Positions 1 to 23,758 of a stretch of 23,758 bases of DNA are shown here, one piece after another. Origin of the DNA: a virus; IMG/VR virus record IMGVR_UViG_3300045922_000360, positions 1 through 23,758 of that record. One strand, written 5' to 3'. How positions within the stretch are numbered: the first letter of the stretch is position 1; each line of letters opens with the position of its first letter. The translations under genes and the position numbers were made by a program. The notes beneath the pieces were generated by a model that ran no database searches, was not told the DNA's origin, and saw nothing but the letters and a program-made list of their open reading frames with translations.

Positions 1-252
1 GAGGTTTACCGGATTGTCGCAATGGACATGCGGTTTTCGCTGGAGAACGAGGAGGAGCAGTCCCTTGCCCGCGTCGTGCATTACACCTGCGAGCGGATTG
101 GCGAAGAAACGCCGTGGGGTGGTCGCGCGTTTGGAACGACTATAGCCGACATCTACGAAGCGCGCGTTTGGCGGAACTGGGCGAATAAAAATGGCGGCGA
201 CATGATGACCGGGCAGCCGATACTAGCTATGCCTGTCGCTGCGGGTGGTTAG
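1..252 (+). CDS. 3' end of an unidentified tail-region protein (5' truncated)
   Basis: The frame is open from the first base, so the gene begins upstream; the first internal ATG is at 22. The visible 83 residues are acidic early on (ENEEEQSL), followed by a segment rich in aromatic and basic residues (IYEARVWRNW). I recognise no family. Its place just before a giant tail protein suggests a tail-tip or baseplate role, which is inference. It ends at a TAG (250-252), and the next large ORF starts at the following base in the same frame, so the two could be one gene split by an amber codon. Confidence 0.6.
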   Translation, partial: EVYRIVAMDMRFSLENEEEQSLARVVHYTCERIGEETPWGGRAFGTTIADIYEARVWRNWANKNGGDMMTGQPILAMPVAAGG

Positions 253-3200
253 GTGGTCTACAAAACAGGGCGCGAGCGGCGGGCAGAGTGGAGCGTCGCC
301 GGTGAATTTAACTGCAGGTACTGGCACCGCGTGGGTTTTTTGCCTAGCCCGCCAGACCCGAACATCAGGAGCCGTGGCGGTACTCAGTCGCTCAAACTTG
401 GGATAACGCAGAACTCAACCTCCGTTGCCTTCTTCGAGATGATTCTGGAGCCGGCGGTTCCGAGCTTCGACCCGTTCGGTGATGTGTTCGGCAGTCTGCC
501 GCTGCCTGTTACACTGGTTGACCAGCAGTTTAGTATCGGCGTTCAGACGGGCGGCGCGCCCGCTCTGGCACCTGATAGCGACATCGGCGCGGCGTTCTGG
601 TTTGCGCTTCCAAGCCCGACGCCCGCTCAATTTGAGTCTGAGTGCACCGTTGACTATGAGGTCACCTTCGGGGTTGACCTTGAGGAGTATTTCGAGGTCA
701 TCGAAATTCCCAACCCGAGCGACCCGAACGGATTTCCAGCCTATGGGGGCGTCCCAAACAATCCGTGGAACGGCTTCCCCGCGTTCGATGGCTCTAAGCA
801 TCTGCGCATTCGGTGGTTCGAGGCGACCAAACAGCACGGCAAAATCAACGCCGATGCGACTTTAACGGTCACCAGCACGGAGGGCGGCGGGTCTGCACGC
901 GTTAGCGCCGAATCTGATATTGACGTGATTATCGAGTGGCACGAATATGGGCTCACAGTAGAGACGGAGAGTCTGGCGGCTGACACATTTCAGACAACAC
1001 ACAGCGGGAGCCAGACATTTAACGGCGTACTGTTGCGCGCGCCCGGAATGCAGATATCTGGCAGCGGATACCTGAACGCATGGGGTGAGCCGTTTGTTAT
1101 GTCGGTCTCGGGCGTGCCGGCTGAAGACAATTATCAGAGCGTCTCGATCACGGACGCGACGATTTCGCCTCCCTACGAGCACGCCTATAATCTACAGCTG
1201 CGCAACTGGACGTCCGCCTACCCGTTTGGTCAAAAAATACGACTCCGGAAGGGCGGAACCGACGTCCATCCGATCACCGATGTATTGCTAGCGACGCCGA
1301 ACCTGTCAGGCGAGTTCGAACAATATAGGGCGGCGGGCAAGTTATGGCGCAATGGCGGGCTACATTTAAACTATAGTCTTGACACGACGGGCGCGGTTGG
1401 TTGGTATCTCGAAGACCCGTTTAAGCAGACCGAGCCGAGTATCAGCGCGAACCAGAAAGAGGCGGCGCGCGACTGGCGGATAATGCTCAGCGGGACGGCT
1501 TGGGACGCGGCGGACTGGGAGATGGACAACCCGCACACCATAGGCGCGTTCTCCTCTGCTGACTGGTCGGTCACCAATGCATCTGTTGCCAGTTCTACGC
1601 CCTACACAGATGTTGAGCCGGTGAACCCCGCTAACCCGATAGTGTTCACTTTGGACACAATCGCGCTGGCAGATTTTCGCGCCTATCGGTTCCTGCGGTT
1701 CCCGATTACGTACCTCCCGTTTTCTACACCGACGACTGAACCGGCAGTTCTGACCATAGACGGGCGCACGTTTTCAGCATCGTTCGATGACACCTCTACG
1801 GAGATTGTTTTTGACCTCTGCAACCCCGACGATTTAACCCCGCCGCTCCAAACTCAAGATTCTATCTGGGACGGGCTAGGTGACGGCACATTCGGGGTCG
1901 GGCAGGCGGGCGAGGTTACTCTGTCGTTCAAGCTCGCTGCAAAAGATTTCATCAGCTTCACCGGCTGGCAGATGTTCGTATCTGACTCCGCCGCTCTGAC
2001 TTGCCAATCATCGTTTGAACGTTGGGTGGAGGGTAGCCCCGAACGCAAGCGGTTCCTCTGGCTGAACACCGACCACCGAATCGGCTACGAACAAGAGGAC
2101 ATGCAGCGGACGGGCGTTGCGCCGTTCTATTCGTACAGTTGGCGGTCGATTTCGCAGCTAGTGGGCGACCAGCCGAAGGGCATCACAATTACCGAAAAAA
2201 CGACGTTCCCCGCAGACGATTTTCATAAAAATGCACGCGACGCGATCAATCTAGGCGGCAACGGCTGTATAATCACAGGCCCGATCGACGCTCTGGTTTA
2301 CGAGGAGACAATCGGCGTGGACGCTCTGACGCCGCGCAATCTCAGAGGCCAGATGCAATGGGACTCGGCGATTGGCTATCCGATAATCGGCAATTGCTGG
2401 GACCTCGAGCCCTACCCCGATGGGACAGACCCGAGCATCAAGCGCGCGTTGGGGATGCGTTCCCGCAAGTACCTGCGCTCGACTTCGTGGGGTCTAGTCA
2501 TCGGTTCCGGCGGCAGCATGGGCAGCGACGTTGTGGACGCGCTGGACATTGTGGCAAACGAGCCTTACACGGACACAACCGACGCAATCGGCAGGTACAC
2601 GATGCAGCACCTGAGGGGCGGTGCAGACCACACCATCAGCTACACGGCGGCGAGCCTGTCGAACGCCATCACGGTTGCGCCGAGGCATTGGCACCGGACA
2701 GCTTTCACCGGCGAAACTCGGTTCATCGGTGCCTACGCGGTTTCGCCCAGTCTGCAACACGTGTTAGGTTCTTTCGAGCCGACGCCCAGCGGTCTTCGCA
2801 TCGGTCTGAGCTTTGCTGGTAACGAACCGTTCCCGCTGGCGTTTCAGCTTTTCGTAACATCGACTCCTGCCCAGAACGACGGCATGGGTCTGGCTTTTTC
2901 AGACGCTGGAACCCTCTACGTGGTCTGGCGCGACGCCGGAGACGTCAAACTAGGCAGGGCAGATACATATTCAGCAATTACGACTATGGCAACAATCGCA
3001 GCGGGGACAGACCCGCAAATCGACGTCAGCCGCACCGGCTGGCTGTACATCTACTGGCGGGACGGGAGCGAAATTAAAGGGCAAATCCGAGACCCGCGCG
3101 GAAACATTGTCCAAAGCGTATTCTCGGCGGTCGCATCCGGTGTAACCGGCGGGTTTTCTGCTCGGTGGAGTCCCACCGCTGGCGGGAGTTGGCGGATGAT

Positions 3201-3267
3201 TATCATCTACACCAGCGGCGGGAACGTCGTTCAGGTCACAAGCCCTGACGGCGTGGTTTTCAGCTAA
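253..3267 (+). CDS. Large putative tail fibre/adhesin protein with C-terminal propeller-like repeats
   Basis: About 1004 residues, rich in Gly, Ser, Thr, Asp and aromatic residues with alternating beta-type sequence, as is common in phage tail-tip and receptor-binding proteins. Roughly residues 875-1004 contain at least two similar units built around a hydrophobic strand and 'WRD' (VVWRDAGDVK, then IYWRDGSEIK), resembling BNR or propeller-type blades. No enzyme motif was recognised. The GTG at 253 is taken as the start only because it directly follows the upstream stop; no good Shine-Dalgarno site is seen, and the true start could lie downstream or the frame could continue from the upstream ORF. 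The 3' end overlaps the convergent minus-strand gene by 8 bases. A tail adhesin role is inferred from size, composition and location. Confidence 0.7.
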   Translation: MVYKTGRERRAEWSVAGEFNCRYWHRVGFLPSPPDPNIRSRGGTQSLKLGITQNSTSVAFFEMILEPAVPSFDPFGDVFGSLPLPVTLVDQQFSIGVQTGGAPALAPDSDIGAAFWFALPSPTPAQFESECTVDYEVTFGVDLEEYFEVIEIPNPSDPNGFPAYGGVPNNPWNGFPAFDGSKHLRIRWFEATKQHGKINADATLTVTSTEGGGSARVSAESDIDVIIEWHEYGLTVETESLAADTFQTTHSGSQTFNGVLLRAPGMQISGSGYLNAWGEPFVMSVSGVPAEDNYQSVSITDATISPPYEHAYNLQLRNWTSAYPFGQKIRLRKGGTDVHPITDVLLATPNLSGEFEQYRAAGKLWRNGGLHLNYSLDTTGAVGWYLEDPFKQTEPSISANQKEAARDWRIMLSGTAWDAADWEMDNPHTIGAFSSADWSVTNASVASSTPYTDVEPVNPANPIVFTLDTIALADFRAYRFLRFPITYLPFSTPTTEPAVLTIDGRTFSASFDDTSTEIVFDLCNPDDLTPPLQTQDSIWDGLGDGTFGVGQAGEVTLSFKLAAKDFISFTGWQMFVSDSAALTCQSSFERWVEGSPERKRFLWLNTDHRIGYEQEDMQRTGVAPFYSYSWRSISQLVGDQPKGITITEKTTFPADDFHKNARDAINLGGNGCIITGPIDALVYEETIGVDALTPRNLRGQMQWDSAIGYPIIGNCWDLEPYPDGTDPSIKRALGMRSRKYLRSTSWGLVIGSGGSMGSDVVDALDIVANEPYTDTTDAIGRYTMQHLRGGADHTISYTAASLSNAITVAPRHWHRTAFTGETRFIGAYAVSPSLQHVLGSFEPTPSGLRIGLSFAGNEPFPLAFQLFVTSTPAQNDGMGLAFSDAGTLYVVWRDAGDVKLGRADTYSAITTMATIAAGTDPQIDVSRTGWLYIYWRDGSEIKGQIRDPRGNIVQSVFSAVASGVTGGFSARWSPTAGGSWRMIIIYTSGGNVVQVTSPDGVVFS

Positions 3268-3427
3268 TCAGCATCCCGAGGACGCCGACCGCGAAACCGA
3301 CGAGCGAACCGGCGATAAGGCGAGCCACCCAGTCAGCGGTCTGAACGTCTTCGCCCCGCGCGCGGCGGGTCGCCAAATCCATGACGACGAAGAGCAACAC
3401 GGCGGTCATGCAGATGGCGATAATCAT
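3260..3427 (-). CDS. Small protein with two membrane segments
   Basis: 55 residues from an ATG at 3427 that overlaps the stop of the upstream gene in an ATGA, implying translational coupling; longer upstream starts would run into that gene. Residues 1-16 (MIIAICMTAVLLFVVM) form one hydrophobic segment, a charged linker follows (RRARGED), and residues about 37-54 form a second (LIAGSLVGFAVGVLGMLI). It is the last gene of the leftward early operon and converges with the tail adhesin gene. Function is unknown; a holin-like or superinfection-exclusion role is possible but nothing specific supports either. Confidence 0.6.
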   Translation of the reverse strand: MIIAICMTAVLLFVVMDLATRRARGEDVQTADWVARLIAGSLVGFAVGVLGMLIS

Positions 3428-3915
3428 TTGCCCACCCTGATTTTGAACGGTGCCAACCCGCACTCTGGCGCGCAACCGAACGAGCGGATGAGAACCAACA
3501 AATGTAGAACGGGAATCGACAGACGGGCTTCTTTGTTCGGTCTGATTTCCAGTTCCGTTTCATAGTTCGAGCCTAGCATAATCTGGTTCCGTGAATTCAC
3601 CCGCAGAAACAGCCGTTGGCTGTGCAGGCTCTTGCCGTCGATGATTCTCAGTGAGATGTCAATCTCAACAAAATCACACTGTTTGTCCACCGTGTATCTA
3701 TAGCGGGTCACGAACGGGCACTCGCGCAGCGCGTCGATGCTGGACTTCCGGGCGTCGAGCCCAGTTGCTGCGCGCAGAACATCTCGCCAGTAGACGTCGA
3801 GCGGCATGGTTAGGCGTTGCGCCTCAGCGCGGTCTGCCAGCCGTTGGAGTTCGGCGAGAATCGCGTCTGATTGCTCGGTGATGATTTCTTCCATCACGTC
3901 TTGGGCGTTGCTCAT
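3424..3915 (-). CDS. Hypothetical protein of the early operon
   Basis: 163 residues. The N-terminal ~45 residues are helical and charged (MEEIITEQSDAILAELQRLA). The rest alternates basic and hydrophobic residues (DFVEIDISLRIIDGK, LFLRVNSRNQIMLG), suggesting a beta-rich domain. It overlaps its neighbours by ATGA on both sides (3912-3915 and 3424-3427), so it is translated as part of the leftward operon. I recognise no family and assign no function. Confidence 0.6.
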   Translation of the reverse strand: MSNAQDVMEEIITEQSDAILAELQRLADRAEAQRLTMPLDVYWRDVLRAATGLDARKSSIDALRECPFVTRYRYTVDKQCDFVEIDISLRIIDGKSLHSQRLFLRVNSRNQIMLGSNYETELEIRPNKEARLSIPVLHLLVLIRSFGCAPECGLAPFKIRVGK

Positions 3916-4121
3916 TGCAGCCTCTCGAAGCCGAGGTTCATTCGGTCTTGTTCTAGGCGTTCATGACCAGCTGAGACGCTGGAAACGAAATGCACGACGA
4001 GTAGCGCGAACGCTGCGGCGATGACTAACCCGATAATGAGGTTGGCGATCCGCTGCTTACGCTGTTTGGCACGGACGCGGGCGATTTCCGCGTCGGTTGG
4101 GTAGTGGTTCATGGTTTTCAT
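3912..4121 (-). CDS. Small single-pass membrane protein
   Basis: 69 residues: a short hydrophilic N-terminus with basic residues (RVRAKQRKQR, about 15-24), one strong hydrophobic segment (IANLIIGLVIAAAFALLVVHF, about 25-45), then a charged tail ending GFERLQ. By the positive-inside rule the N-terminus should be cytoplasmic and the tail outside. The ATG at 4121 is preceded by an AAAGGAA ribosome site; a second in-frame ATG three codons later is less well placed. It is coupled to the downstream gene by an ATGA overlap. Function unknown. Confidence 0.55.
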   Translation of the reverse strand: MKTMNHYPTDAEIARVRAKQRKQRIANLIIGLVIAAAFALLVVHFVSSVSAGHERLEQDRMNLGFERLQ

Positions 4122-4143
4122 GGTTCCTTTTGTTGGTTGGTTG

Positions 4144-4159
4144 GGGCGGTTGCCCGCCC
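4144..4159. other. Perfect 6-bp GC-rich hairpin in the leftward operon
   Basis: GGGCGG at 4144-4149 pairs with CCGCCC at 4154-4159 around a TTGC tetraloop. It lies in the only appreciable gap (4122-4170) of the leftward operon, between the repeat-protein gene and the small membrane-protein gene. No U-tract follows on either strand, so it is not a classical intrinsic terminator. It could stabilise or process the transcript, or reduce expression of the last three genes. Confidence 0.4.
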
Positions 4160-4170
4160 TGTTGCTTCTG

Positions 4171-4446
4171 TTATCGTCCCACCTTCTTAGCCCATTTCCG
4201 GTCGGAGCCGCAGTCTAGAGCCATCCAGAAGGCGTAGGTAGCATGGTCTCCCTGCTCGATAATTCGTTCAGCCCATTTCCGGTCGGAGCCGCAGTCTAGA
4301 GCCATCCAGAAGGCGCATTCGGCAGAGCCAGCCGTCTCGATGATGCGTTCTGCTTCCGTTCTGAATTCGCAGTCTTCCCGCGCAAGCCACCACGCCCGCT
4401 GAGGCGTCAGGTAGCACTTGTAGTTAGTGTTGTTGTTTTCGTTCAT
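4171..4446 (-). CDS. Helical-repeat protein (three ~27-residue units), copy 1
   Basis: 91 residues. Three related units follow an N-terminal MNEN: one ending EFRTEAERIIE, then AFWMALDCGSDRKWAERIIE, then AFWMALDCGSDRKWAKKV. The last two share an identical 13-residue core, and the DNA repeats exactly (see repeat entry). The units look amphipathic and helical, a solenoid-like pattern; I recall loosely similar 'A..YARDV..G.WPEAE' repeats in hypothetical phage proteins, but that comparison is inference. A strong GGAGGAG (4455-4461) precedes the ATG at 4446, the best ribosome site in the operon. A paralogue lies at 6330-6584. Function unknown; a protein-interaction role is plausible. Confidence 0.65.
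   Translation of the reverse strand: MNENNNTNYKCYLTPQRAWWLAREDCEFRTEAERIIETAGSAECAFWMALDCGSDRKWAERIIEQGDHATYAFWMALDCGSDRKWAKKVGR
4189..4315. repeat. Perfect 46-bp direct repeat within the repeat-protein gene
   Basis: Bases 4189-4234 recur exactly at 4270-4315, an offset of 81 bases, equal to 27 codons. Synonymous positions are also identical, so the unit was duplicated or homogenised recently. It encodes the 'MALDCGSDRKW' part of the protein repeats. Such a repeat can gain or lose a unit by slippage or by annealing-mediated recombination without breaking the frame. Confidence 0.9.
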
Positions 4447-5412: not shown

Positions 5413-5927
5413 TTTGAACCTCCGAGCTTGACGGCGAACGACTCGCCAGCAGGCACGACTTCAGCAACGCCAGCAGCCACAGCAGACTCTAGAGCTTCGC
5501 CGGTCAGCTTCGAGACCAACGGCGATTTGGTGATTTTCACCGCTTCCGGCGTGTAAGCCTCAAGCCACGGCAGCGCGTCCTCTGTCAGTGCCACCCGTTC
5601 GGGCGTGGTTCGGAAGCTAAGCCGACCATATGGCAGCGTCAGCGTTTTGGTTTTCTGGTCTGCCAGCTGCTCCCGAGCGAACGATTCAAGTTCACCGGAG
5701 AATCTGGTTTGCAGCCAGTTCAGCCGCGACTCATGCTGTTTAACCAGCTTTTCGAGGTTGGATTTTGCCGCTTCCATGGCTGCCTGCTCGGCTAGCATTT
5801 TTCGCATCACCCAGTTAGCGGAGTCCGCATCTCGAACGTGGAATTGCTCAGCGGTTTCGTGTCCTAAAATCTCGCCAGTTTCTGGGTTGACGAGAAACCC
5901 GTCTATGTTGATTGTTGTGGTTTCCAT
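5409..5927 (-). CDS. Gam-like host-nuclease inhibitor / Gp157-type protein
   Basis: 172 residues. Residues about 40-95 form a long coiled coil (AMEAAKSNLEKLVKQHESRL). A compact segment follows: LTLPYGRLSFRTTPERVAL, then WLEAYTPEAVKITKSPLVSK. This coiled coil plus '(T)LPYGxLSFR..P..V' plus 'W......AVK' pattern is that of the phage Gam family, in which Mu Gam binds DNA ends and blocks RecBCD-type nucleases; siphovirus Gp157 proteins look similar. Placement directly upstream of a Rad52-type annealase, overlapping it by GTGA, is typical. Its ribosome site, GAGGA, lies within the end of the preceding mini-ORF, so its translation may depend on that ORF. Confidence 0.8.
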   Translation of the reverse strand: METTTINIDGFLVNPETGEILGHETAEQFHVRDADSANWVMRKMLAEQAAMEAAKSNLEKLVKQHESRLNWLQTRFSGELESFAREQLADQKTKTLTLPYGRLSFRTTPERVALTEDALPWLEAYTPEAVKITKSPLVSKLTGEALESAVAAGVAEVVPAGESFAVKLGGSK

Positions 5928-5935
5928 TGTGGTTG

Positions 5936-6004
5936 TTAGTCCTCGAACGGGTCGAACGGTTCGGGGTCTCGCCCCAGCCGTCCGATGATGATTAGTTTAT
6001 TCAT
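5936..6004 (-). CDS. 22-residue SSB-like miniprotein (N-terminal strand plus acidic tip)
   Basis: A 22-codon ORF starting at the ATG at 6004, inside an ATGA overlap with the upstream HTH gene, and ending in TAA at 5936-5938, eight bases before the Gam-like start. Its first 15 residues, MNKLIIIGRLGRDPE, are almost exactly the consensus N-terminus of bacterial single-strand DNA-binding proteins (MNKVILIGRLGRDPE type). Its last six, FDPFED, are acidic and contain Asp-Pro-Phe, loosely recalling the SSB C-terminal tip. The rest of the OB fold is missing and there is no room for it. It may be a deletion relic kept as a translational coupler for the Gam-like gene, or a functional micropeptide. The SSB match is seen directly; any function is inference. 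Confidence 0.55.
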   Translation of the reverse strand: MNKLIIIGRLGRDPEPFDPFED

Positions 6005-6333
6005 TGTGCTTCTTGTGTTTCGTAGCGCACCCAGCGGCAAGCCCGCTGATAGTCTGCGCTCGTTGTCATGCCGAGTTCGCGGCAAATCGTCCTAATGGTT
6101 CGGTCGCCTTGCAGCCAAGCTTTAACCACCGCCTCCCGCTGTTCGAGACCATCGACTGTAAGGGGTTTCGCCGGTTGGCGTAGCTGCTCTTCTCGCGCCC
6201 ATCGTCTAACCGACGCTTCACCGCAACCAACTTGCGCGGCTATCTGGCGATAACTGAGCCGAGTCGAGACCAGCAGGTGCAATGCGTGGGCCCGCTCAGC
6301 AACAAGGACGGGTTTTCGTGGTCGCCCTCTCAT
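6001..6333 (-). CDS. Small DNA-binding protein with two helix-turn-helix motifs
   Basis: 110 residues from the ATG at 6333, which overlaps the stop of the upstream gene as ATGA; an upstream in-frame ATG (6354) lies inside that gene and is less likely. The N-terminus has an AT-hook-like RGRPRKP. A homeodomain-like helix-turn-helix follows at about residues 27-46 (LSYRQIAAQVGCGEASVRRW), and a second probable one at about 78-102 (RTIRTICRELGMTTSADYQR). This resembles small phage regulators or the N-terminal part of transposases. As the second gene of the leftward operon, it is a good candidate to bind the divergent control region at 6585-6637. No specific target can be shown. Confidence 0.65.
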   Translation of the reverse strand: MRGRPRKPVLVAERAHALHLLVSTRLSYRQIAAQVGCGEASVRRWAREEQLRQPAKPLTVDGLEQREAVVKAWLQGDRTIRTICRELGMTTSADYQRACRWVRYETQEAQ

Positions 6334-6584
6334 TTGCCCACCTGCCGCAACCACTCACGAGATGAGCCGCAATCCTCAACCATCTTTATTGCCACCCATG
6401 TATCGCCTGCTCGCTCAATGATGCGTTCCGCCCACTCGCGGGGCGAGCCGCAGTCGCGAACCATTTGGTAGGCGTCTTCGGCAGCCTCCTCGATAATTCG
6501 CTCAGCTTCCGGACGAAACTCACGGTCGGCTTTCGCTCGCCGATATGCTTCGTAGGGCGTCGGTTGTTCTGTGTTTTCGTTCAT
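6330..6584 (-). CDS. Helical-repeat protein (three ~25-27-residue units), copy 2
   Basis: 84 residues from the ATG at 6584 (MNEN), with AGGTGT just upstream; a start seven codons earlier has no ribosome site. It is a paralogue of the protein at 4171-4446: both begin MNEN, both have EFRxEAERIIE followed by two 'DCGSxRxW' units (DCGSPREWAERIIE, DCGSSREW), and both end with a VG dipeptide plus a basic residue. DNA identity between the two genes is low, so the duplication is old, unlike the repeat inside copy 1. It is the first gene of the leftward operon, so it should be made early and at high level. Function unknown. Confidence 0.6.
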   Translation of the reverse strand: MNENTEQPTPYEAYRRAKADREFRPEAERIIEEAAEDAYQMVRDCGSPREWAERIIERAGDTWVAIKMVEDCGSSREWLRQVGK

Positions 6585-6637
6585 ACACCTATTATGACGC
6601 GTCAAACCACGTAAAGGTGTCGTCTGATTAGGAAATC
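6585..6637. promoter_or_regulatory. Divergent early control region with nested dyads
   Basis: This 53-base gap separates the leftward recombination operon from the rightward replication genes, so it should carry promoters for both. It holds a perfect 10-bp palindrome, TGACGCGTCA (6595-6604), nested in an inverted pair ACACCT (6585-6590) / AGGTGT (6615-6620). TATTAT at 6590-6595 could be a rightward -10 box, and CATAAT on the other strand (6591-6596) a leftward one; no convincing -35 boxes are visible. The dyad would overlap these elements, as an operator does. Promoter assignment is tentative. Confidence 0.4.
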
Positions 6638-7120
6638 ATGAAAATTCTAGGTTTGGACATGGGCACAACAGCCGGCGCAGCGTTGCAGGATGCCGGCGGC
6701 TTGCGAGTCTGGGAGGGGAACTTCACCCCACGACGTGGCGCGTCCTATGGTCTGCGGTTTATCGAGTTCTCCGCATGGCTGGACAGCATATACAGCGAGT
6801 GCCAGTTTCAGCTTGTCGCCTACGAGCAAATTATCGGCATTTCCAACCGTGGCGGGCAATCTGCGCAGCAACAAATCTGGGGCGGGTTTTTAGCAACGCT
6901 CGCGGTCTGGTGCGATGCGCGAAGTATCGATTACGTGGGGCTATCGGTCACGGCGTGCAAGAAATTGGCGACAGGTAAGGGCAACGCCAGCAAAGATGAA
7001 ATGCTAGCGGCGTTTGAATCTGCAACGGGTCTGAGTGCATCCCATGATGTCGCCGATGCTTACTGGGTCATGCGGTTAGCGGAGTGGGAGTTTACGGCAG
7101 GTACCACGCTTCAGCCATGA
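6638..7120 (+). CDS. RuvC-like Holliday junction resolvase
   Basis: 160 residues with RNase H-fold nuclease motifs in the expected order: the first strand with Asp7 (MKILGLDMGTTAGAA), an internal acidic site Glu63 (LVAYEQ), and a C-terminal His136-Asp137-x-x-Asp140 (SHDVADAYWV). A basic/Ser segment KGNASKDEM lies between, as in phage RuvC proteins. These enzymes cut four-way and branched DNA in a metal-dependent reaction, resolving recombination intermediates and trimming concatemers before packaging. The length is typical of the phage family. An AGGA site lies close upstream of the ATG. It is the first rightward gene, divergent from the annealase operon with which it likely acts. Confidence 0.8.
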   Translation: MKILGLDMGTTAGAALQDAGGLRVWEGNFTPRRGASYGLRFIEFSAWLDSIYSECQFQLVAYEQIIGISNRGGQSAQQQIWGGFLATLAVWCDARSIDYVGLSVTACKKLATGKGNASKDEMLAAFESATGLSASHDVADAYWVMRLAEWEFTAGTTLQP

Positions 7121-7146
7121 ATTGCGTAGTATGATTCCTGCCAGTG

Positions 7147-7986
7147 ATGAACAAATCCCGTGTACCACAAGTGTCGGTGGACGCAACCGGTGAACGACCG
7201 CCCAGCCGCATAAACGGCAAGCAGAACCCAGAATATCAGCGGTGGCGATACCGCCAGAAGCAAGCAGCCGCAGCCGGCGACCTGAACAAAACCAACGCAC
7301 TGCTAGAGACGCTGATTGCCGAGGTGCAGACGCTTTCACAGCTTCTCCGCGACCTGTCTCAGACTATCGCCCAGCAGTCCATGTTGTCACAACATTTAGA
7401 GGGTGTTGCGCGACAATTTGAACCCAAAACTGCAACAATCGCACAACATGTTGTGAATGTTGTTAACAACACGCACCAAGAACGACCCGATGTTGTCACA
7501 ACATTTGAACCTGAAAATCAGAGCGTTGAACCTAATGTTGTGAATGTTGTTAACAACACGCAGCCAACAAAAAGCCCCCCCTCTTCTCCCCCCCTTATTT
7601 CCCCCCTTCCCCCTAACAACCCCCTACCCCCCTATAATCCCCCCAACATCACCCCCCAAAAAGAGATCCCCCCTTTAGGGGATAAATCCCCTCCCCCCTA
7701 CGCCAAAACCGGCGGGGTTGATGGCGTCTGGGAGCGTCTCCCCGCAGACTGGCAGACCCCCGAGATGCGGGCAATGCTCGATGCGTTCGAGATGCACAGG
7801 AAGTCGCTGCGCAAGTCGGCGTGGACGCCCATTGGTTGCCAGCAGAAAGTCACCGAATGGCTGAAACACGACCTGCAAACGGTGATTGACTCTGGCTGGC
7901 ACAGCATCGAGCAAAATTGGCAGGGTATCATCGTCCGACACGACCGAAACCAGCGCAAAATGCCGATTATCCCCGAGGGATGGTAA
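7147..7986 (+). CDS. Replication initiator-like protein with proline-rich linker
   Basis: 279 residues from the ATG at 7147 (a GTG one codon earlier is possible; no clear SD). It starts with a basic region (about 20-42), then a coiled coil (about 45-90, NALLETLIAEVQTLSQLLRD), then a low-complexity part with a repeated VVNVVNNT (residues 102-109 and 131-138) and a proline-rich linker (about 140-185). The C-terminal domain (about 193-262, containing LPADW, AFEMHRKSLRK, VIDSGWHSIEQNWQG) resembles the C-terminal domain of many phage replication proteins ('Y...R...K.....A.....L......VI..SI..GWQG'). No standard N-terminal winged helix is visible, so the DNA-binding part is unclear. The repeats in its gene may be the origin, as in lambda O. 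Confidence 0.6.
   Translation: MNKSRVPQVSVDATGERPPSRINGKQNPEYQRWRYRQKQAAAAGDLNKTNALLETLIAEVQTLSQLLRDLSQTIAQQSMLSQHLEGVARQFEPKTATIAQHVVNVVNNTHQERPDVVTTFEPENQSVEPNVVNVVNNTQPTKSPPSSPPLISPLPPNNPLPPYNPPNITPQKEIPPLGDKSPPPYAKTGGVDGVWERLPADWQTPEMRAMLDAFEMHRKSLRKSAWTPIGCQQKVTEWLKHDLQTVIDSGWHSIEQNWQGIIVRHDRNQRKMPIIPEGW
7381..7562. other. Candidate replication origin: palindromic ATGTTGT/ACAACAT repeat cluster
   Basis: The heptamer ATGTTGT starts at 7381, 7448, 7457, 7490, 7535 and 7544, and its complement ACAACAT occupies 7389-7395, 7443-7449 and 7498-7504. These build palindromes: ATGTTGT-C-ACAACAT at 7381-7395 and again at 7490-7504; CACAACATGTTGTG at 7442-7455; and TGTTGTTAACAACA at 7458-7471 and 7545-7558. 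A 28-base direct repeat spans 7448-7475 and 7535-7562 (offset 87 bases, 29 codons). Clustered iterons inside an initiator gene, over its low-complexity linker, parallel the lambda-type origin. Origin function is inferred. Confidence 0.5.
7575..7698. other. G-free, C-run tract (minus strand G-quadruplex-prone) next to the repeats
   Basis: Ten runs of five to seven C occur between 7575 and 7698, and no G at all from 7575 to 7662 on the plus strand. The minus strand is therefore a dense series of G-runs able to form quadruplexes. It encodes the proline-rich linker of the initiator-like protein, but the choice of CCC for nearly all Pro codons goes beyond the protein need. Strong strand asymmetry beside an iteron cluster suggests an unwinding or replication-fork element; this is inference. 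Confidence 0.6.
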
Positions 7987-7999
7987 AACAAATTCGAAC

Positions 8000-8527
8000 A
8001 TGCAACTGACCACCGAGACAGTGAAAGCCGCCCTCAAACTCTGGGCGCGGCACCTGAAAAACCCGCCCCAACTGACCGACGAAATGGCAACCGACTGGCG
8101 GTTGATTTTTGATTCTGAAATACCGGACCAGACCTTCAAAAGCCTTGCCGTTGCAGCACTCCGAACCCTGACATGGTTCCCCGCTCCAGCAGAGTTCGCG
8201 GCACTTATGGAGACCGGACTGGACGAACGCGCCGAATTGGCGTGGCTGCACGTCAAGCGGCGCGGTGGCAACATCAAAACCCCCGGCGATGTTGGCGGCG
8301 AACCGTGCGCACTATGGGCAGCTGCAAGTCTGGGCAAACACGCTCTGGAATCGCTCCGTCATCACCCATCAGACCCGTTCAACGAACGCGAACTGAAAAA
8401 GGATTTTCTGCTGCTATACAAGCTGGCATGGCGCCGTGGTCTAGGGCTTGAGACCTACAGCGGGAAACGTCCGGAACTGCCGCAATCCCAAATCAGCAGA
8501 AACCAACAACTGCCGGAACACGTCTGA
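8000..8527 (+). CDS. Putative helicase loader-like replication protein
   Basis: 175 residues from the ATG at 8000, 13 bases after the initiator-like gene; an in-frame ATG at 7886 lies deep inside that gene and is rejected. The N-terminal half (ALKLWARHLKN, then DWRLIFDSEIPDQTFKSLAV, then LTWFPAPAEFAAL) fits the pattern of phage helicase-loader proteins of the G39P-like type: 'W...L.......A...L......FPPTPAEI'. The C-terminal half is helical and charged with no motif recognised. Initiator followed by loader is a common phage replication pair that recruits the host DnaB-type helicase, and no phage helicase is seen here. Assignment is by pattern and context only. Confidence 0.5.
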   Translation: MQLTTETVKAALKLWARHLKNPPQLTDEMATDWRLIFDSEIPDQTFKSLAVAALRTLTWFPAPAEFAALMETGLDERAELAWLHVKRRGGNIKTPGDVGGEPCALWAAASLGKHALESLRHHPSDPFNERELKKDFLLLYKLAWRRGLGLETYSGKRPELPQSQISRNQQLPEHV

Positions 8528-10272: not shown

Positions 10273-10365
10273 AGTGTTCCGCCAACTGCTTGACATTCAC
10301 AGCCGAATTGCATCCGTCCATGATATTATGGTTCCCATGACATTTGTAATTGTATCCTAAATCAT
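10273..10365 (+). promoter_or_regulatory. AT-rich leader upstream of the large terminase gene
   Basis: No convincing gene is seen here. The base composition turns AT-rich from about 10320 to the terminase start at 10366, in contrast to the flanks. A perfect -35-like TTGACA occurs at 10290-10295, but no -10 box is found at standard spacing; TATTAT at 10324-10329 is too far away. The region may hold a late promoter of another type or simply the 5' leader. Confidence 0.25.
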
Positions 10366-11739
10366 ATGTATGAGTTATCTATAAAACATCAGCTGCGGGA
10401 AGCTGTTCGCGCCCGTCTTGAGCGGCGGTTGTCGCTTGCCAGTGACCAGTCAGCGGGCGAGTCATTTCTGGAATGGTTCGAGCGAACGAAGCCCAAAAAA
10501 TACACTGTCCCGCACCACGTGAAGATGATTGGTCACCAATTGCAGCGTATAGAGTCTGGCAGCCTAGAGCGTCTGCGTATCCACATGCCGCCGCGTCACG
10601 GCAAAACCGAAACTTGTACGCTGAATTTCCCGATGTACTATATGCTGCGGCGGGAGCAAGCGCGGGTACTCATCACCTCTTACAACCAGACCAACGCATC
10701 TAGATTTTCGCGTACTCTTCGGAATCGCTGGGTAGCAATGGGGCAGAACCTTGAAACATCCGCCGCCTCTCACTGGTCGGACGGGCACGGGCGCGAACTG
10801 TCGGCGCGCGGTGTAGGCTCGCCGCCCACGGGGCAAGGGTTCGACCTCATCATAATCGACGACCCGATTAAGTCACGCATCGAGGCGGACAGTGCTACCT
10901 ATAGAGACAGGGTTCATGCTTGGTTTACAGACGACCTTTTAACACGTCTGGAGCCGGGCGGGAAAATTGTACTCATTGCCACCCGTTGGCATCATGACGA
11001 TTTAGCCGGACGCATTGGCAAGGACTGGGAAACGCTCGACTTGCCCGCAATCGATGAAAACGGAAACGCTCTATGGTCAGAACGTTTTCCAATTGACGCG
11101 CTCAATCAGATTCGAGAGCAGATGAAGCGCGAAGAGGGCGAGTATAGCTGGGAGGCGCTTTACCAGCAGAACCCGACGCCGAAGACTGGCTCGCATTTTG
11201 ACATCGGCAAATTGCAATTTATCGACGTTGTGCCAAACGTTGTTGAGACCGTGCGGGGCTGGGACTTCGCAGCGACTAAAGGCGATGGCGACTATACAGC
11301 GGGCGTCAAAATCGGAAGAACAGAGGGCGGCGAATTTGTGCTGCTTGATGTTGTGCGGGGTCAATGGGGCGCGCTCGACGTTGAACGGATGTTGGCGGCA
11401 ACAGCAGAAGCGGACGGCAGAGCGTGCAAAATTGCCATGCCGATAGACCCGGGCGCAGCGGGTAAATTCCAGTTCGCGCGGTTCCAACGGTTGCTCTCAG
11501 CGTTTGCGGTGCATGGCGAGACGGTCAGTGGTTCCAAAATCGTCAGGTCGCAGGCGTTGGCGGCGTGCATTGAAGCGGGCAACCTCCTCATCCCGAGGGG
11601 CGCAAACTGGGCAACCGATTTCGTGGAAGAGCTTAGGCAATTCCCAAACGGCAGGAACGATGACCAAGTGGACGCGGCGGCGGAATCCTATAATCATCTG
11701 GCTGGCATGGGTCGGGTAAACAGATGGGAAGTATTTTAG
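10366..11739 (+). CDS. terL: Terminase large subunit (ATPase and nuclease)
   Basis: 457 residues with both motor and nuclease domains. Walker A is MPPRHGKT (74-81), Walker B LIIIDDP (161-167), and the coupling motif IATRWHHDD (204-212). The RNase H-like nuclease shows Asp300 (RGWDFAAT), Asp361 (PIDPGAAGK) and Asp432-Asp433-x-x-Asp436 (GRNDDQVDA). The order and length match the Terminase_6-type large subunit. It pumps DNA into the prohead through the portal and cuts concatemers. The ATG at 10366 has no SD; a second ATG four bases later is out of frame and short. The small subunit lies upstream and the portal downstream. Confidence 0.95.
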   Translation: MYELSIKHQLREAVRARLERRLSLASDQSAGESFLEWFERTKPKKYTVPHHVKMIGHQLQRIESGSLERLRIHMPPRHGKTETCTLNFPMYYMLRREQARVLITSYNQTNASRFSRTLRNRWVAMGQNLETSAASHWSDGHGRELSARGVGSPPTGQGFDLIIIDDPIKSRIEADSATYRDRVHAWFTDDLLTRLEPGGKIVLIATRWHHDDLAGRIGKDWETLDLPAIDENGNALWSERFPIDALNQIREQMKREEGEYSWEALYQQNPTPKTGSHFDIGKLQFIDVVPNVVETVRGWDFAATKGDGDYTAGVKIGRTEGGEFVLLDVVRGQWGALDVERMLAATAEADGRACKIAMPIDPGAAGKFQFARFQRLLSAFAVHGETVSGSKIVRSQALAACIEAGNLLIPRGANWATDFVEELRQFPNGRNDDQVDAAAESYNHLAGMGRVNRWEVF

Positions 11740-19168: not shown

Positions 19169-19948
19169 ATGGCAAACAGGGCATCAAATCTAAACGTAAC
19201 GGCTATCACAATTGGCGCGACCGAGTACGTGACTCAGGCAATCGAGGGAACGGTCTCGCTCAACCTAGAACACGACGACGGGCGAGGCATGGGTTCCACG
19301 CAGGCGATTTACAGAGCGGTGGCAGCCAAGCAAAACGCCACAGCGAATATTACTGTCTTGCGCGACCAGTCCGCGGCACGAATTACGCCGTTAGATTTGA
19401 CCGTTTTCACCATCGGCGCCACGTCTGAACTGGGCACCATGAAAAGCTGGAATTTGGCGGTGGAGACCGAGAGTCAGGACGGTTCGGCGGCGGCTGACCG
19501 GTGGACGTTTGCGAATCGGACAGGCATAAGGTTCACGGCTTCGGGTCGGCTGTTGGCTACATCGTCCGCACCTGCAACCAGAGCGGCGATTCTTGGCGCG
19601 CTGTCCGGAACGGAATTGACGCTTACATCTACATTCGGGGTTGGCAACACCATTGCGCTTCCCATGCGGCTAATCGGCTTCTCACAACAGGCGACGCGTG
19701 GTGAGATTACCGGCTATGATTTGGAATTTGTGAGCAACGGAACGGCGCCATCTATCAGCTCTACTTTTCCTGTTTTCGCGCTTGCGGTTGGCGGCGGCGT
19801 TGTATCGCCCGCTACGTTCACATACGGCGACGGCGGCACACTGTCAGGCAACTGGCTGGTAACGTCTGCCGCTCTGAGTATTGAAGATTCGCAGGTGGTC
19901 AGGGAGTCGTACACCCTTGTAAATCGCGGAGTCATCGCGCTAACCTAA
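19169..19948 (+). CDS. Tail tube-like protein, paralogue 1
   Basis: 259 residues, beta-rich. It shares with the next gene the segments GRGMGSTQAIYR..., LDLTVF...ELGTM, VETESQDGSAAADRWTFANR, a GALSGT turn, GEITGYDLEFVSNG and the final YTLVNRGVIALT, so the two are clearly paralogues over their whole length. Position before the chaperone and tape measure, size and beta content fit a major tail (tube) protein. The C-terminal ~60 residues could be an added outer domain. The start follows a TAA directly, in an A-rich context with no SD, matching the capsid gene and its sister gene. Confidence 0.65.
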   Translation: MANRASNLNVTAITIGATEYVTQAIEGTVSLNLEHDDGRGMGSTQAIYRAVAAKQNATANITVLRDQSAARITPLDLTVFTIGATSELGTMKSWNLAVETESQDGSAAADRWTFANRTGIRFTASGRLLATSSAPATRAAILGALSGTELTLTSTFGVGNTIALPMRLIGFSQQATRGEITGYDLEFVSNGTAPSISSTFPVFALAVGGGVVSPATFTYGDGGTLSGNWLVTSAALSIEDSQVVRESYTLVNRGVIALT

Positions 19949-19949
19949 A

Positions 19950-20735
19950 ATGTCGGACAGAGTTACAGCCCTTCAGTTGGTTTCGCTCAACATCGGCACG
20001 TCTGGACCCGGCTCCGACATTAAAGCCGTCTTGATTAACGGGCAAATGAGCATCACGATGGCGACCGCAGATGCACGCGGCATGGGCACGGGGCAGGCGA
20101 TCGAACGCCACGTTCCGGTCAAAGAGTCGGCAACCGGTTCTATCGAGTTTCTGCGCTTCCAGTCAGGCAACGAGATTACCAACCTAAACGTGACGGTTTT
20201 CTCGCCCGGCGGCGTTGAACTAGGCACCATGCGCTCGTGCGCTATTTCGTTTGAGGTCGAAACGGAGGACGGTTCCGCAGCAGCTACCCGTTGGACGTTT
20301 GCCAACCGGTTAGGTCAGACAATCAGGGTGCGTGGCACATTGACGGCGAACACGTCCGGCGGTAACGCGCAAAGAACGGCGATTGCTGGCGTTCTATCTG
20401 GCACGGCGGTTACAATGACGTTCGCAACGGGCGCGGGCCACTCTATCGGATTTCCGGCGCGAATTGTGAGCGTCGGCACAGCGAGCACTAGGGGAGGTAT
20501 CACCACTTACGATATCGAACTAATCAGCAACGGGGGTTCTGCAACGGTTACCGGTTACAACGCGTTTTTGCAAGGCGTCGGCGCCGCTACATATTTTCTC
20601 AGTATGAACGCAGGGGACGGCTCGTTGGTGCAGATGGATTGCCTTTTTACGAGCGGTGAGGTCACCGTTGAAAACGGTGCAATTGTCACCGAGCGTTACG
20701 AATTTGCAAACAGAGGAGCAGTCACGATTACATGA
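19950..20735 (+). CDS. Tail tube-like protein, paralogue 2
   Basis: 261 residues, paralogous to the preceding gene: ARGMGTGQAIERH, LNVTVF...ELGTMRS, VETEDGSAAATRWTFANR, GVLSGTAV, GITTYDIELISNG, ending YEFANRGAVTIT. Divergence is moderate and spread over the length, so the duplication is not recent. It may form the tube, a second ring type, or a specialised tail-end subunit; which copy is major cannot be read from sequence. It starts two bases after the sister's last codon region (AAAATG, no SD) and overlaps the next ORF by ATGA. Confidence 0.65.
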   Translation: MSDRVTALQLVSLNIGTSGPGSDIKAVLINGQMSITMATADARGMGTGQAIERHVPVKESATGSIEFLRFQSGNEITNLNVTVFSPGGVELGTMRSCAISFEVETEDGSAAATRWTFANRLGQTIRVRGTLTANTSGGNAQRTAIAGVLSGTAVTMTFATGAGHSIGFPARIVSVGTASTRGGITTYDIELISNGGSATVTGYNAFLQGVGAATYFLSMNAGDGSLVQMDCLFTSGEVTVENGAIVTERYEFANRGAVTIT

Positions 20736-20854
20736 CAGACAAAAACAAAAAACCAAAACAAGAAGTGGAGCAGACAGAAGAGAAGGACGTTGGCGCCGGC
20801 GGTCGCTTGTGCGAGCCGGTTGTAGAGAGCGAGGAGGAATCGGACGGTGCTTAG
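20732..20854 (+). CDS. 40-residue charged protein
   Basis: A short ORF coupled by ATGA to the tail tube stop. It is Lys-rich at the start (MTDKNKKPKQEVEQTEEKD) and Glu-rich at the end (VVESEEESDGA), with a GAGG turn between. It carries a GAGGAGGAA (20831-20839) that serves as ribosome site for the following GTG start, so translation of this ORF and the next is linked. Disordered and highly charged; function unknown. It could be only a coupling leader. Confidence 0.5.
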   Translation: MTDKNKKPKQEVEQTEEKDVGAGGRLCEPVVESEEESDGA

Positions 20855-21143
20855 TTTGCCCGAATTGATGGCGATTCAGCCGAGCAGCAGGCGCGTCTAC
20901 ATCGGCGTTGTCGGGTTCGTTCACATCCTGTTTTTCAGGCTGGCGTTCCGATTGACGCCGGTTGACCTTAACGCTAATCAGACGGTTTCTCTTGCAGGCG
21001 TTGCGTCGGTTAGGCTGGGCGTTTTGTTCGACCAGCTAATCAGGGCGTTGGGCGGCAAAGATGGTCTTTGGGAATCAGACGAGCAACGGGCATCCGCTGG
21101 CGTCGGCTCTGTTACAGGTAGAGTATTTATCGAAATCAGATGA
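20847..21143 (+). CDS. Hypothetical tail-region protein
   Basis: 98 residues from a GTG at 20847 with a strong GAGGAGGAA about eight bases upstream; it overlaps the previous small ORF by eight bases. Contains a hydrophobic stretch (VYIGVVGFVHILFFRLAF) then LNANQTVSLAGVASVRLGVLF and a Gly-rich end. I recognise no family. The location between the tail tube and the assembly chaperone suggests a tail role. It overlaps the chaperone start by ATGA. Confidence 0.55.
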   Translation: MLSLPELMAIQPSSRRVYIGVVGFVHILFFRLAFRLTPVDLNANQTVSLAGVASVRLGVLFDQLIRALGGKDGLWESDEQRASAGVGSVTGRVFIEIR

Positions 21144-21619
21144 GTAGCTTAAATAATCTAATTGACCTCGCGCCAGAGCGCAAAACCGAGGTGGTGGTTC
21201 AGGCGGGCGGCGAGATCTTGCGGTTCATTCTGCCGACGACCTTCGACGACTTTATGACGATTCGGCGCCAGTCCAGCCAGTGGGCTTTAGACTATATAGA
21301 AGGGCGCGTTTTTCCGCCTGCAACATACGCCGGTCTTCCGCTGGCGACTTCGGAGGACGTTCTGGCGTCTTGCTGGATGCTTGCGGCGATGGATGCCGAC
21401 CCGCAAAACACATGTTGGCTGTACTCGCGTCTGGCTGCTGTCCATTGGGAGGTCTTTGGTCAGATTATGCAGGCGGTCACAGACGAGATAGGCGTTTCGA
21501 CGGTCGAGGTTGAAAAGGTCCGTATCGAGGACGCTAAAAAAAATTGCAATCCAACAGCATGTACCGATGGCGACTGCAACTCGCCCGAGACGTGTACGGA
21601 AGGCACTACAGCGAACTAA
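21140..21619 (+). CDS. Tail assembly chaperone, zero-frame product (gpG analogue)
   Basis: 159 residues in the position of the lambda G-type chaperone, between tail tube and tape measure. The body contains ILRFILPTTFDDFMTIRRQS and helical segments (VLASCWMLAAMD, WEVFGQIMQAVTDEI). The last ~25 residues, after the A8 run, form a Cys/Thr-rich tail with four Cys spaced C-x4-C-x4-C-x5-C, which is probably a by-product of dual coding with the -1 frame. It binds the tape measure during tail assembly by analogy with lambda. See the frameshift product entry. Confidence 0.7.
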   Translation: MSSLNNLIDLAPERKTEVVVQAGGEILRFILPTTFDDFMTIRRQSSQWALDYIEGRVFPPATYAGLPLATSEDVLASCWMLAAMDADPQNTCWLYSRLAAVHWEVFGQIMQAVTDEIGVSTVEVEKVRIEDAKKNCNPTACTDGDCNSPETCTEGTTAN

Positions 21620-21723
21620 CGCCGGAGCAAGCGAACAACCTAACCGAACTGCTCGCGCTGGCGATAATCGAGAGCGAAGAGCAAGACAAGGCGTTTAAGG
21701 ACATCAGGCAGAGGAAACAATGA
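21140..21723 (+). CDS. Tail assembly chaperone, -1 frameshift product (gpG-T analogue)
   Basis: A -1 shift on A AAA AAT (21538-21544) continues translation to the TGA at 21721-21723, giving a ~194-residue protein. The -1 extension adds about 60 residues: MYRWRLQLARDVYGRHYSEL, then an acidic/helical end with LALAIIESEEQDKAFKDIRQ and KQ. This is the expected T-like extension, and its stop overlaps the tape measure ATG as in many siphoviruses. In lambda, the ratio of G to G-T controls tail assembly around the tape measure. The extension has no good start of its own beyond an internal ATG, which supports the frameshift. Confidence 0.7.
21538..21544 (+). promoter_or_regulatory. Slippery heptamer A AAA AAT for -1 frameshift
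   Basis: An A8 run (21536-21543) in zero frame reads AAA AAA AAT; a -1 slip re-pairs both tRNAs on AAA. A small stem GGCGA/TCGCC (21569-21573 with 21581-21585) lies downstream, further away than the usual stimulatory hairpin, so its role is uncertain. Confidence 0.65.
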
Positions 21724-23525
21724 GCGTTGACAGGTTAGTAACTTCAGTTGAGCTTCGGGACGGTGTAAGCGGTCCTGCGCGTGGTGTTCGCCGGTCAACC
21801 GATGATGTCGCCAAGAGTATGGATAAGCTCTTAGGCAAACAGGGCGGCGATGCCTTCCGGAATCTGAATACCCTCTTCCCCTCCTTGACCAGCAATATTA
21901 CGAATTTCGCGAACGTAATACCCGCTGCGGGTGCGAAGTTTTCGGCGTTCGGCAAGTTGCTGGCTAACCCTGTTGGGCTAGGTGTTTTGGCTGTCGGTCT
22001 GACTGCGGCGGCGGCGGCGTTTGGTGCGTTTTCATCGCTCGCTACGGCGGCGACGGGCTATGTAACAGGATTCATGCAAGCGGTCGGCAGCTACGCGGGT
22101 TCCGGTCTACGTGCGTTCGGGCAGTCTATATTCTTCGGACTGAGTAAACCGTTCATTGAGGCAGCTAAATCTATGGATCAGTACGAGCGCAAGTTCATTG
22201 CCATTATGGGCAAAACACAGGCACGGCAGATGGTCAATTTTGTCGTTGGCTACGCAGAGAATTCTCGCCTGCTTTTGCCTGAGCTGATGGACATTGCGCG
22301 CATCCTCCCGCGTCTTGGGTTGGGCAATCAGATTGAGCGGATGATGCGGATGGTGGAGACGCTCGCGGTCTCTGGTCCGGGCGATGCAAACTCAAACGCG
22401 CAGGGCGTGCTAGCGGCGTTGCAGATGATAGCCGGCGGACGCGGTGAAATGGCGATGCGCCGCAGGTTGATGCAGTTTGGAGTCACGGAAGACCGTTTGC
22501 GTGAATTCGGCGGCATCGACGACCTCAAGAGCGCGACGCCTGCTCAGATGTTCGAGGCGTTGGCGCGTCTGACTGAAAATTTCAGCTACTTCAAAGACGT
22601 TCTCGCCAGCAACGCGAATAGTATCGACAACGTCTTGGGCAGCTTTGAGCAAACTATCATGATGGCAAAAGCTGCCATCGGTAAAGCGGTTGCCGAGTTC
22701 ATGTTGCCCGCTCTTACAGGTGCCCAGCAGGTCATTAAATACGTTTCAGAATCGGGACTTCTGGAAAAGGTCACTAAACAGATTGGCACCCTATTTGGTG
22801 CGGATGACGAGAACGCTATGGGTCGCTCGATTGCGTTTATGGCGGCGGCGGTGGAGCGGCTATCTGAAATTTGGGATATCGTGGTCCAGTACTTCAAAGA
22901 CCTCTGGGGCGCGCTCTCGGGGATTCTGTCCGCGTCTTGGGCGACTTTGGCGGACATCCTCACCCAATTTCTGACAGCGTTCAGGCAGCCAATGATCCTG
23001 TTGGTTCAGGCTCTAGGCTCGTTCGTCCCAGCCGCCGCAATCGTAGCCCAACAGTTAAAGGCGTTGTCTGGCGACATCAAGGCGGGCAACCAGACTAAGG
23101 ACGCGTTTGACATGTTCGGTCAGATTTTTGAGGCATTTCGACAGCGTGGTTTTGAGTTTGGCAAATCGATTGCCGACAGAGCCAAAGAAATAGAGGAGGG
23201 CGCGAGAGCGAGGGCTGACCAGCCCGCGACCGCCCCGAGCTTGCAGAACGTTACGAGACTTGAGGATGAGGACGACCTCGGACTTGACGCGGTGCTTGGG
23301 AAAACGTCCCCTCTGGTTGCTGCTGTCACTGAAAACACGAAAGCCCTTCGCGACATGGCGGCGGTCGTCATGGGTGGCGGCGAGTTAGCGCGAACCGGTG
23401 TAACGGCGTCGGATTTGTCAGGTGTTCAGAGCGCGTCGGCGTTTGCGCGTGCGTTGGAGCAGGCGTTGGAGTCGTTGGCGGTTCGGGGTCATCGCTCCAT
23501 TGCGATTTCCCGCCCGATGCCCTAA
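21720..23525 (+). CDS. Tape measure protein
   Basis: 601 residues, the longest gene of the tail block. It opens with MSVDRLVTSVELRDGVSGPA, typical of tape measures, then has a hydrophobic segment (about 82-115, LGVLAVGLTAAAAAFGAFSS) and a long helical body with regular amphipathic helices and another hydrophobic region around 400-445. At roughly 1.5 angstroms per residue the tail would be about 90 nm, which is modest. It starts at ATG 21720, overlapping the chaperone -1 stop, with AGAGGAAA upstream. No peptidoglycan-degrading motif was seen. It overlaps a convergent gene by a few bases at its 3' end. Confidence 0.88.
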   Translation: MSVDRLVTSVELRDGVSGPARGVRRSTDDVAKSMDKLLGKQGGDAFRNLNTLFPSLTSNITNFANVIPAAGAKFSAFGKLLANPVGLGVLAVGLTAAAAAFGAFSSLATAATGYVTGFMQAVGSYAGSGLRAFGQSIFFGLSKPFIEAAKSMDQYERKFIAIMGKTQARQMVNFVVGYAENSRLLLPELMDIARILPRLGLGNQIERMMRMVETLAVSGPGDANSNAQGVLAALQMIAGGRGEMAMRRRLMQFGVTEDRLREFGGIDDLKSATPAQMFEALARLTENFSYFKDVLASNANSIDNVLGSFEQTIMMAKAAIGKAVAEFMLPALTGAQQVIKYVSESGLLEKVTKQIGTLFGADDENAMGRSIAFMAAAVERLSEIWDIVVQYFKDLWGALSGILSASWATLADILTQFLTAFRQPMILLVQALGSFVPAAAIVAQQLKALSGDIKAGNQTKDAFDMFGQIFEAFRQRGFEFGKSIADRAKEIEEGARARADQPATAPSLQNVTRLEDEDDLGLDAVLGKTSPLVAAVTENTKALRDMAAVVMGGGELARTGVTASDLSGVQSASAFARALEQALESLAVRGHRSIAISRPMP

Positions 23526-23659
23526 AGTTCTGACAGTTCGCGCTCCGCTTCGTTAGCAAGTGCCAGTTCGGCGAGCTTCTCCATCCGCCACATTTCAGCG
23601 AGCAGTTCGAGTTCTACGAAGTCTTCCTCGGTTAGGTTCTGCGGGTCGATGGTGTTCAT
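23522..23659 (-). CDS. 45-residue acidic helical protein (minus strand)
   Basis: From an ATG at 23659 with AGGAGG six bases upstream, ending in TAG at 23522-23524, which overlaps the tape measure stop convergently. The product is acidic and helical (MNTIDPQNLTEEDFVELELL, then MEKLAELALANEAERELSEL). Excellent ribosome site and coupling with the upstream gene by ATGA argue it is real despite its size. No family recognised. It lies on the opposite strand to the tail operon. Confidence 0.6.
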   Translation of the reverse strand: MNTIDPQNLTEEDFVELELLAEMWRMEKLAELALANEAERELSEL

Positions 23660-23758
23660 TTTGTTCCTCCTGATTGTACCCCGCCGAACTCAGCGACAAG
23701 GGCGCGCACACTCATCATCTCGTCGAGAAATGCTTCAGATGGTTCGGTTCCAGCGGTG
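23656..23758 (-). CDS. 3' end of an unidentified minus-strand gene
   Basis: Only the last ~33 codons are in the window, ending in a TGA at 23656-23658 that overlaps the next start as ATGA. The visible part (SEAFLDEMMSVRALVAEFGG) is helical. It carries the AGGAGG used by the downstream gene. The beginning lies beyond the window edge and no function can be proposed. Confidence 0.5.
   Translation of the reverse strand, partial: TAGTEPSEAFLDEMMSVRALVAEFGGVQSGGTK

Follow-up and report, generated by a model that had tools for sequence, protein, structure and literature searches.

The window analysed here comprises all 23,758 bases of a viral record in IMG/VR. Another record (G001; 25,802 bases), which is more than 99% identical to the window in the shared parts, overlaps both of its ends: bases 1–3931 correspond to window positions 19828–23758, and from base 7083 onward it follows the window from position 1. 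Together the two close into a circle of 26.9 kb, a composite of two strains that differ by sequence replacement or indels at window 4122–4391 and 10300–10307 and are more than 99% identical around these sites. The predicted terminase, portal, prohead protease, HK97-type capsid protein and CHAP endolysin identify the virus as a tailed phage, and several cyanophages are found among the relatives of its terminase and portal proteins (identity 24–38%). No RNA families or tRNAs were found, and the literature yielded papers on oriλ and nothing on this phage or on phage origins with C-runs.

The early genes fall into a leftward set, which includes those of Mu-Gam-like and Rad52-like proteins, and a rightward cluster. 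The latter starts with the gene of a RuvC-like resolvase (6638–7120, plus strand; phrog_159, E = 1.6e-15), followed by an orphan early gene at 7147–7986, a gene for a 175-aa orphan protein (8000–8527, plus strand) and then the endolysin gene. The 175-aa open reading frame occupies the position of lambda P and, judging from this position and from a WFPAPAEF motif recognised by eye, is a putative helicase loader. Its product matches no family, the lambda P and G39P families included (no match to PF06992, PF11417 or PF20081), and a search for relatives of the gene in viral and genome contigs returned near-identical phages or nothing usable; a weak match in contig L013, which misfits the likely genes there, was discarded. 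Relatives collected through the RuvC-like protein are mosaic phages whose other genes gave no help. As none of the scanned proteins of the 26.9-kb circle could be recognised as a helicase, primase or polymerase, the phage would need to recruit the host replisome. Among the other orphan genes, two on the minus strand (window 4171–4446 and 6330–6605) encode small proteins that share DCGS..(K/R)WAERIIE-type repeat units, and a near-identical DNA repeat of 51–53 nt lies at 4184–4234 and 4263–4315.

The gene at 7147–7986 (plus strand) encodes a putative initiator of 279 aa when read from its ATG, with a GTG at 7144 as another possible start. The protein consists of a basic N-terminus with a heptad pattern, a segment coded by repeats, a proline-rich linker and a helical C-terminus, the helices of the last being taken from a low-confidence structure model with which Foldseek gave no meaningful match. 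By inspection, the basic N-terminal segment QRWRYRQK is followed by leucine and valine residues in a heptad pattern, an arrangement that could form a dimeric DNA binder. The protein has no match in Pfam, PHROGs or NCBIfam, no tblastn match in phages and no winged helix. Searches of viral and genome contigs, by tblastn in phages and with a degenerate motif from the N-terminus again gave near-identical phages or nothing usable, and no relative divergent enough for a test of repeat conservation was found.

Between 7381 and 7562 the gene carries a dense cluster of short repeats, described in an earlier note on this DNA, and every element listed there is present. Nine heptamers ATGTTGT/ACAACAT lie at 7381, 7389(−), 7443(−), 7448, 7457, 7490, 7498(−), 7535 and 7544. 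They build two copies of the perfect 15-bp dyad ATGTTGTCACAACAT (7381–7395 and 7490–7504, in different reading frames), one perfect 14-bp palindrome CACAACATGTTGTG (7442–7455) and two copies of a second, TGTTGTTAACAACA (7458–7471 and 7545–7558). The 23.8 kb contain 15 perfect palindromes with a length of 12 bp or more, and these are the five longest; their centres (7388, 7448.5, 7464.5, 7497 and 7551.5) are irregularly spaced, with gaps of 60.5, 16, 32.5 and 54.5 bp. A 28-bp direct repeat (7448–7475 and 7535–7562, plus strand), which encodes VVNVVNNT twice, sits in a 60-bp duplication that is 77% identical at a spacing of 87 bp. The cluster spans 0.28–0.50 of the gene, with the heptamer peak at 0.37. 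The 15-bp dyad occurs in 50 IMG/VR stretches, none of which besides the near-identical phage contains the cluster; in the dyad-bearing stretches that were inspected, the dyad seems to result by chance from codons of the DVVTT kind, and they were set aside. A search of phages and plasmids by blastn, with the repeat block as query, found nothing convincing.

The whole window contains 11 heptamers against 2.0 expected, with a maximum of 7 in dinucleotide shuffles. Because the cluster is coding, a test conditioned on the protein weighs more, and for this we used 10,000 synonymous-codon shuffles of 7381–7563 (two sets of 5000). No shuffle had nine heptamers (the highest count was 5); one attained five palindromes of 12 bp or longer, and two contained a repeat of 28 bp. 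When the whole gene 7147–7986 was permuted, the palindromes were reached in 0/300 cases and the score for any heptamer, diluted by C-runs, in 5/300. Furthermore, an identical 17-mer, ATGTTGTCACAACATTT, occurs twice, 109 bases apart, and is read in two frames: at 7381 as ATG TTG TCA CAA CAT TT (MLSQHL) and at 7490 as gAT GTT GTC ACA ACA TTT (DVVTTF). Duplication at the protein level therefore cannot explain it. The earlier proposal that the DNA rather than the protein is selected is borne out by both the synonymous-shuffle excess and the 17-mer: selection acts on the cluster DNA itself. Comparison with the near-identical phage goes in the same direction, with six SNPs in 7147–7986, five of which change the protein and none of which falls in a heptamer or palindrome; this pattern is as an origin would predict, but it is weak evidence, as only about 0.6 site hits are expected by chance.

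Directly after the repeats lies a feature that the earlier note had overlooked, a 147-base tract (7567–7713, plus strand) with ten runs of 5–7 C, corresponding to G-runs on the minus strand, that codes for the proline-rich linker. Its 18 prolines are encoded by CCC (15) and CCT (3) and never by CCG, which is the favourite proline codon of the phage (108/202 in the other genes counted; Fisher test for CCC enrichment, p = 7e-7). C exceeds G by 66 in the tract, and by no more than 55 in any of 5000 synonymous simulations. Of all such C-runs that this strand of the genome carries, two thirds fall in the tract, which also gives by far the strongest G4/i-motif-type signal of the genome (G4Hunter −2.7; next 1.7). 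Since this linker is also shaped at the DNA level, the peculiar segment extends past 7562 to about 7713. The tract is a candidate strand-opening or structural element. A more specific version, in which a C/G-run array (G-quadruplex or i-motif) beside the palindromic sites is the opening element and works with a new initiator that has a basic segment and a coiled coil in place of a winged helix, seems rather doubtful to us. Elsewhere in the genome, the longest homopolymer G run is a run of ten at window 16969.

General origin signals are less telling. Scans of genome stability and AT content revealed no distinct or lambda-type AT-rich tract beside the cluster; the repeat block is moderately unstable, ranking third among 200-bp windows and eighth among 100-bp windows. 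The minimum of the cumulative GC skew shifts with treatment, lying at 8611 in the raw data, at 6541 without the C-run tract and at 13332 after detrending. The most AT-rich and least stable stretch of the genome is at 10290–10366, just before the gene of the terminase large subunit, and is possibly a promoter or packaging region.

We consider it probable that the cluster at 7381–7562 is the core of a replication origin placed, in a lambda-like layout, within the very gene that encodes its initiator. Dimers of the initiator would bind the five dyads and the half-sites, and the resulting nucleoprotein complex would strain and open nearby DNA; the opening could take place in the repeat block, which is moderately AT-rich, or in the C-run tract. 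The 8000–8527 protein would then bring in the host replicative helicase. Rightward transcription through the ruvC, initiator and loader genes would yield the proteins needed and, as in lambda, might also activate the origin. An initiator role for the 7147–7986 gene is something we infer and do not assign, because the gene has no database relatives and no O-type winged helix, a lambda-type AT-rich tract is missing and the GC-skew minimum depends on the treatment. The estimates we attach to this reading and to the four alternatives that follow are not strictly exclusive.

It is conceivable, if unlikely, that the origin, or part of it, is bound by another phage or host protein and that the 7147–7986 protein has a different role, such as helicase recruitment. 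This reading overlaps with the preferred one in calling the cluster an origin, and it accommodates the lack of a recognisable DNA-binding domain in the protein. However, in lambda and in the initiators that we compared the sites sit in the gene of their own binder, and the QRWRYRQK segment and leucine/valine heptad pattern, as far as inspection goes, could make the protein a dimeric binder itself.

Perfect dyads of 14–15 bp are also typical for the sites of dimeric regulators, and an HTH protein is encoded nearby (6004–6354). The dyads could thus be operators of this or another phage repressor or regulator, that act from within the gene and silence the rightward cluster or form a roadblock to it. 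This appears quite improbable, given that no dyad copies occur elsewhere in the window, including the divergent gap at 6606–6637 where early operators would be expected, that no convincing promoter lies beside the cluster and that nine irregularly spaced half-sites inside a coding region would be unusual for operators.

Some other cis-acting role, for instance as a partition or centromere-like, recombination or packaging site or as a structure of the single strand, such as one for lagging-strand initiation, strikes us as similarly improbable. The inverted copies do pair across the region when it is single-stranded (z = −3.9 for DNA and −2.4 for RNA), but this fold largely follows from the repeats themselves, and palindromes with 0–1 central bases fit protein dimers better than hairpins. 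Moreover, no ParA/ParB-type or integrase match was found among the scanned proteins, and the terminase small subunit is encoded 2 kb away. Finally, ordinary evolution of a low-complexity linker (VVNVVNNT and proline-rich) by in-frame duplication, in the absence of selection on the DNA, can be dismissed as highly improbable: although the 60-bp unit does look like such a duplication and single dyads elsewhere arise by chance in DVVTT-type codons, this account is excluded by the synonymous shuffles and is at odds with the 17-mer in two frames 109 bp apart, with heptamers in both orientations and with the avoidance of G in the proline codons of the tract.

An initiator-embedded origin, the reading we prefer, can be set beside other phage initiators. 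Applied to three wHTH-type initiators, two of them from cyanophages, the repeat scan peaked at 0.35 of the gene in Synechococcus phage Sc-Yong805-2, at 0.39 in Microcystis phage Mae-JY24 and at 0.44 in Faecalibacterium phage Lagaffe, with scores as high in 9/300, 22/300 and 1/300 permutations, respectively. Sc-Yong805-2, Mae-JY24 and the relatives of Lagaffe have PHROG matches to, or annotations as, replication initiation. Six other genes of the window showed no excess in the same test. The pattern is common and not universal, since three of the eight other initiators examined (Shimadzu, nd4 and Harrison) have no clear heptamer cluster and that of Myxococcus phage Mx9 has palindromes only; in Mx9 (L098, approximately 2349–2411) long perfect palindromes, ACCCCGCGCGGGGT, AACCCCCCGGGGGGTT and GGGGTCCGAGTCGGACCCC, lie in the middle of the annotated initiator gene.

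As in the window, the repeats of Sc-Yong805-2 (GGACGTCC/AACCGTCC) and Mae-JY24 (AACCGTTCA, four times) sit in the linker-coding part, and in Sc-Yong805-2 the sites are palindromic with C-runs beside them. By eye, the C-terminus of the Sc-Yong805-2 protein (HSIRNSYQGI) also resembles that of the window protein (HSIEQNWQGI), both being HSI..xQGI-like, and the small next gene has a WPSTPEI motif where that of the window has WFPAPAEF. BLASTP of the two C-termini gave E = 0.044, which is a lead only, as there is no significant overall similarity. The N-terminal domain of the Sc-Yong805-2 and Mae-JY24 proteins matches phrog_9474, whereas the window protein lacks it, and no relatives of the Sc-Yong805-2 initiator were found in viral contigs.

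The unrelated IMG/VR contig L171 has a similar arrangement, with eight CATGTCG motifs in nested palindromes, then C-runs, within a gene that precedes a DnaB helicase gene. It differs from the window in motif and protein, in its missing 5' end and in having the helicase directly next; having been found post hoc by a search for C-runs, it serves as an illustration and not as a test. Positions 1–300 of this contig, with dense CATGTCGCGACATG palindromes followed by a purine tract and the C-runs, are probably the origin of another phage. In a further contig (L207, approximately 5880–6110), repeated GGGGGGACA-type runs, reading in either orientation, lie shortly before a gene resembling that of a single-stranded-DNA-binding protein.

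Iteron plasmid origins resemble the window in having replicon-specific clustered repeats, which in plasmids are bound by an initiator that the replicon encodes. However, most plasmid iterons are direct repeats with helical phasing to which monomers bind (PMC5043065), whereas the sites in the window are mostly dyads and lack such phasing.

The closest parallel is the lambda origin, which lies inside gene O, where near-perfect 19-bp inverted repeats bind O dimers (PMC5043065); an adjacent 40-bp AT-rich tract opens, and DnaB is recruited by P (PMC5043065, PMC7466680). That lambda has its iterons in the same part of O, as the earlier note stated, is correct: they are annotated at 0.39–0.48 of O, against 0.28–0.50 of the gene here. 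When used as a positive control, lambda O gave a heptamer peak at 0.37, where the iterons begin and exactly as in the window gene, with a score as high in 1/300 permutations. Both phages have inverted-repeat sites clustered midway through an early gene, here demonstrably selected as DNA, and in the window a small gene follows in the place of P. Unlike in lambda, the sites are perfect 14–15-bp palindromes of three types at irregular spacing, compared with four similar imperfect iterons of approximately 18–19 bp; the neighbour of the cluster is a C-run tract and not an AT-rich tract; and neither homology to O or P nor an O-type initiator (a winged helix or a PHROG or Pfam initiator family) was found. 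The proposal of a lambda-like origin in an initiator gene thus stands as regards placement, selection on the DNA and the small downstream gene, while no homology marks the gene as an initiator. By the features tested, the layout is lambda-like and the protein falls outside the lambda O family. The C-run tract raises the testable question of how an origin that has no AT-rich tract opens. If our reading is true, counts of heptamers and palindromes conditioned on the protein in linker-coding parts would offer a sequence-only route to phage origins and orphan initiators, and the lambda layout would recur with a putative initiator that has no detectable homology to O, which would suggest that it evolved independently.
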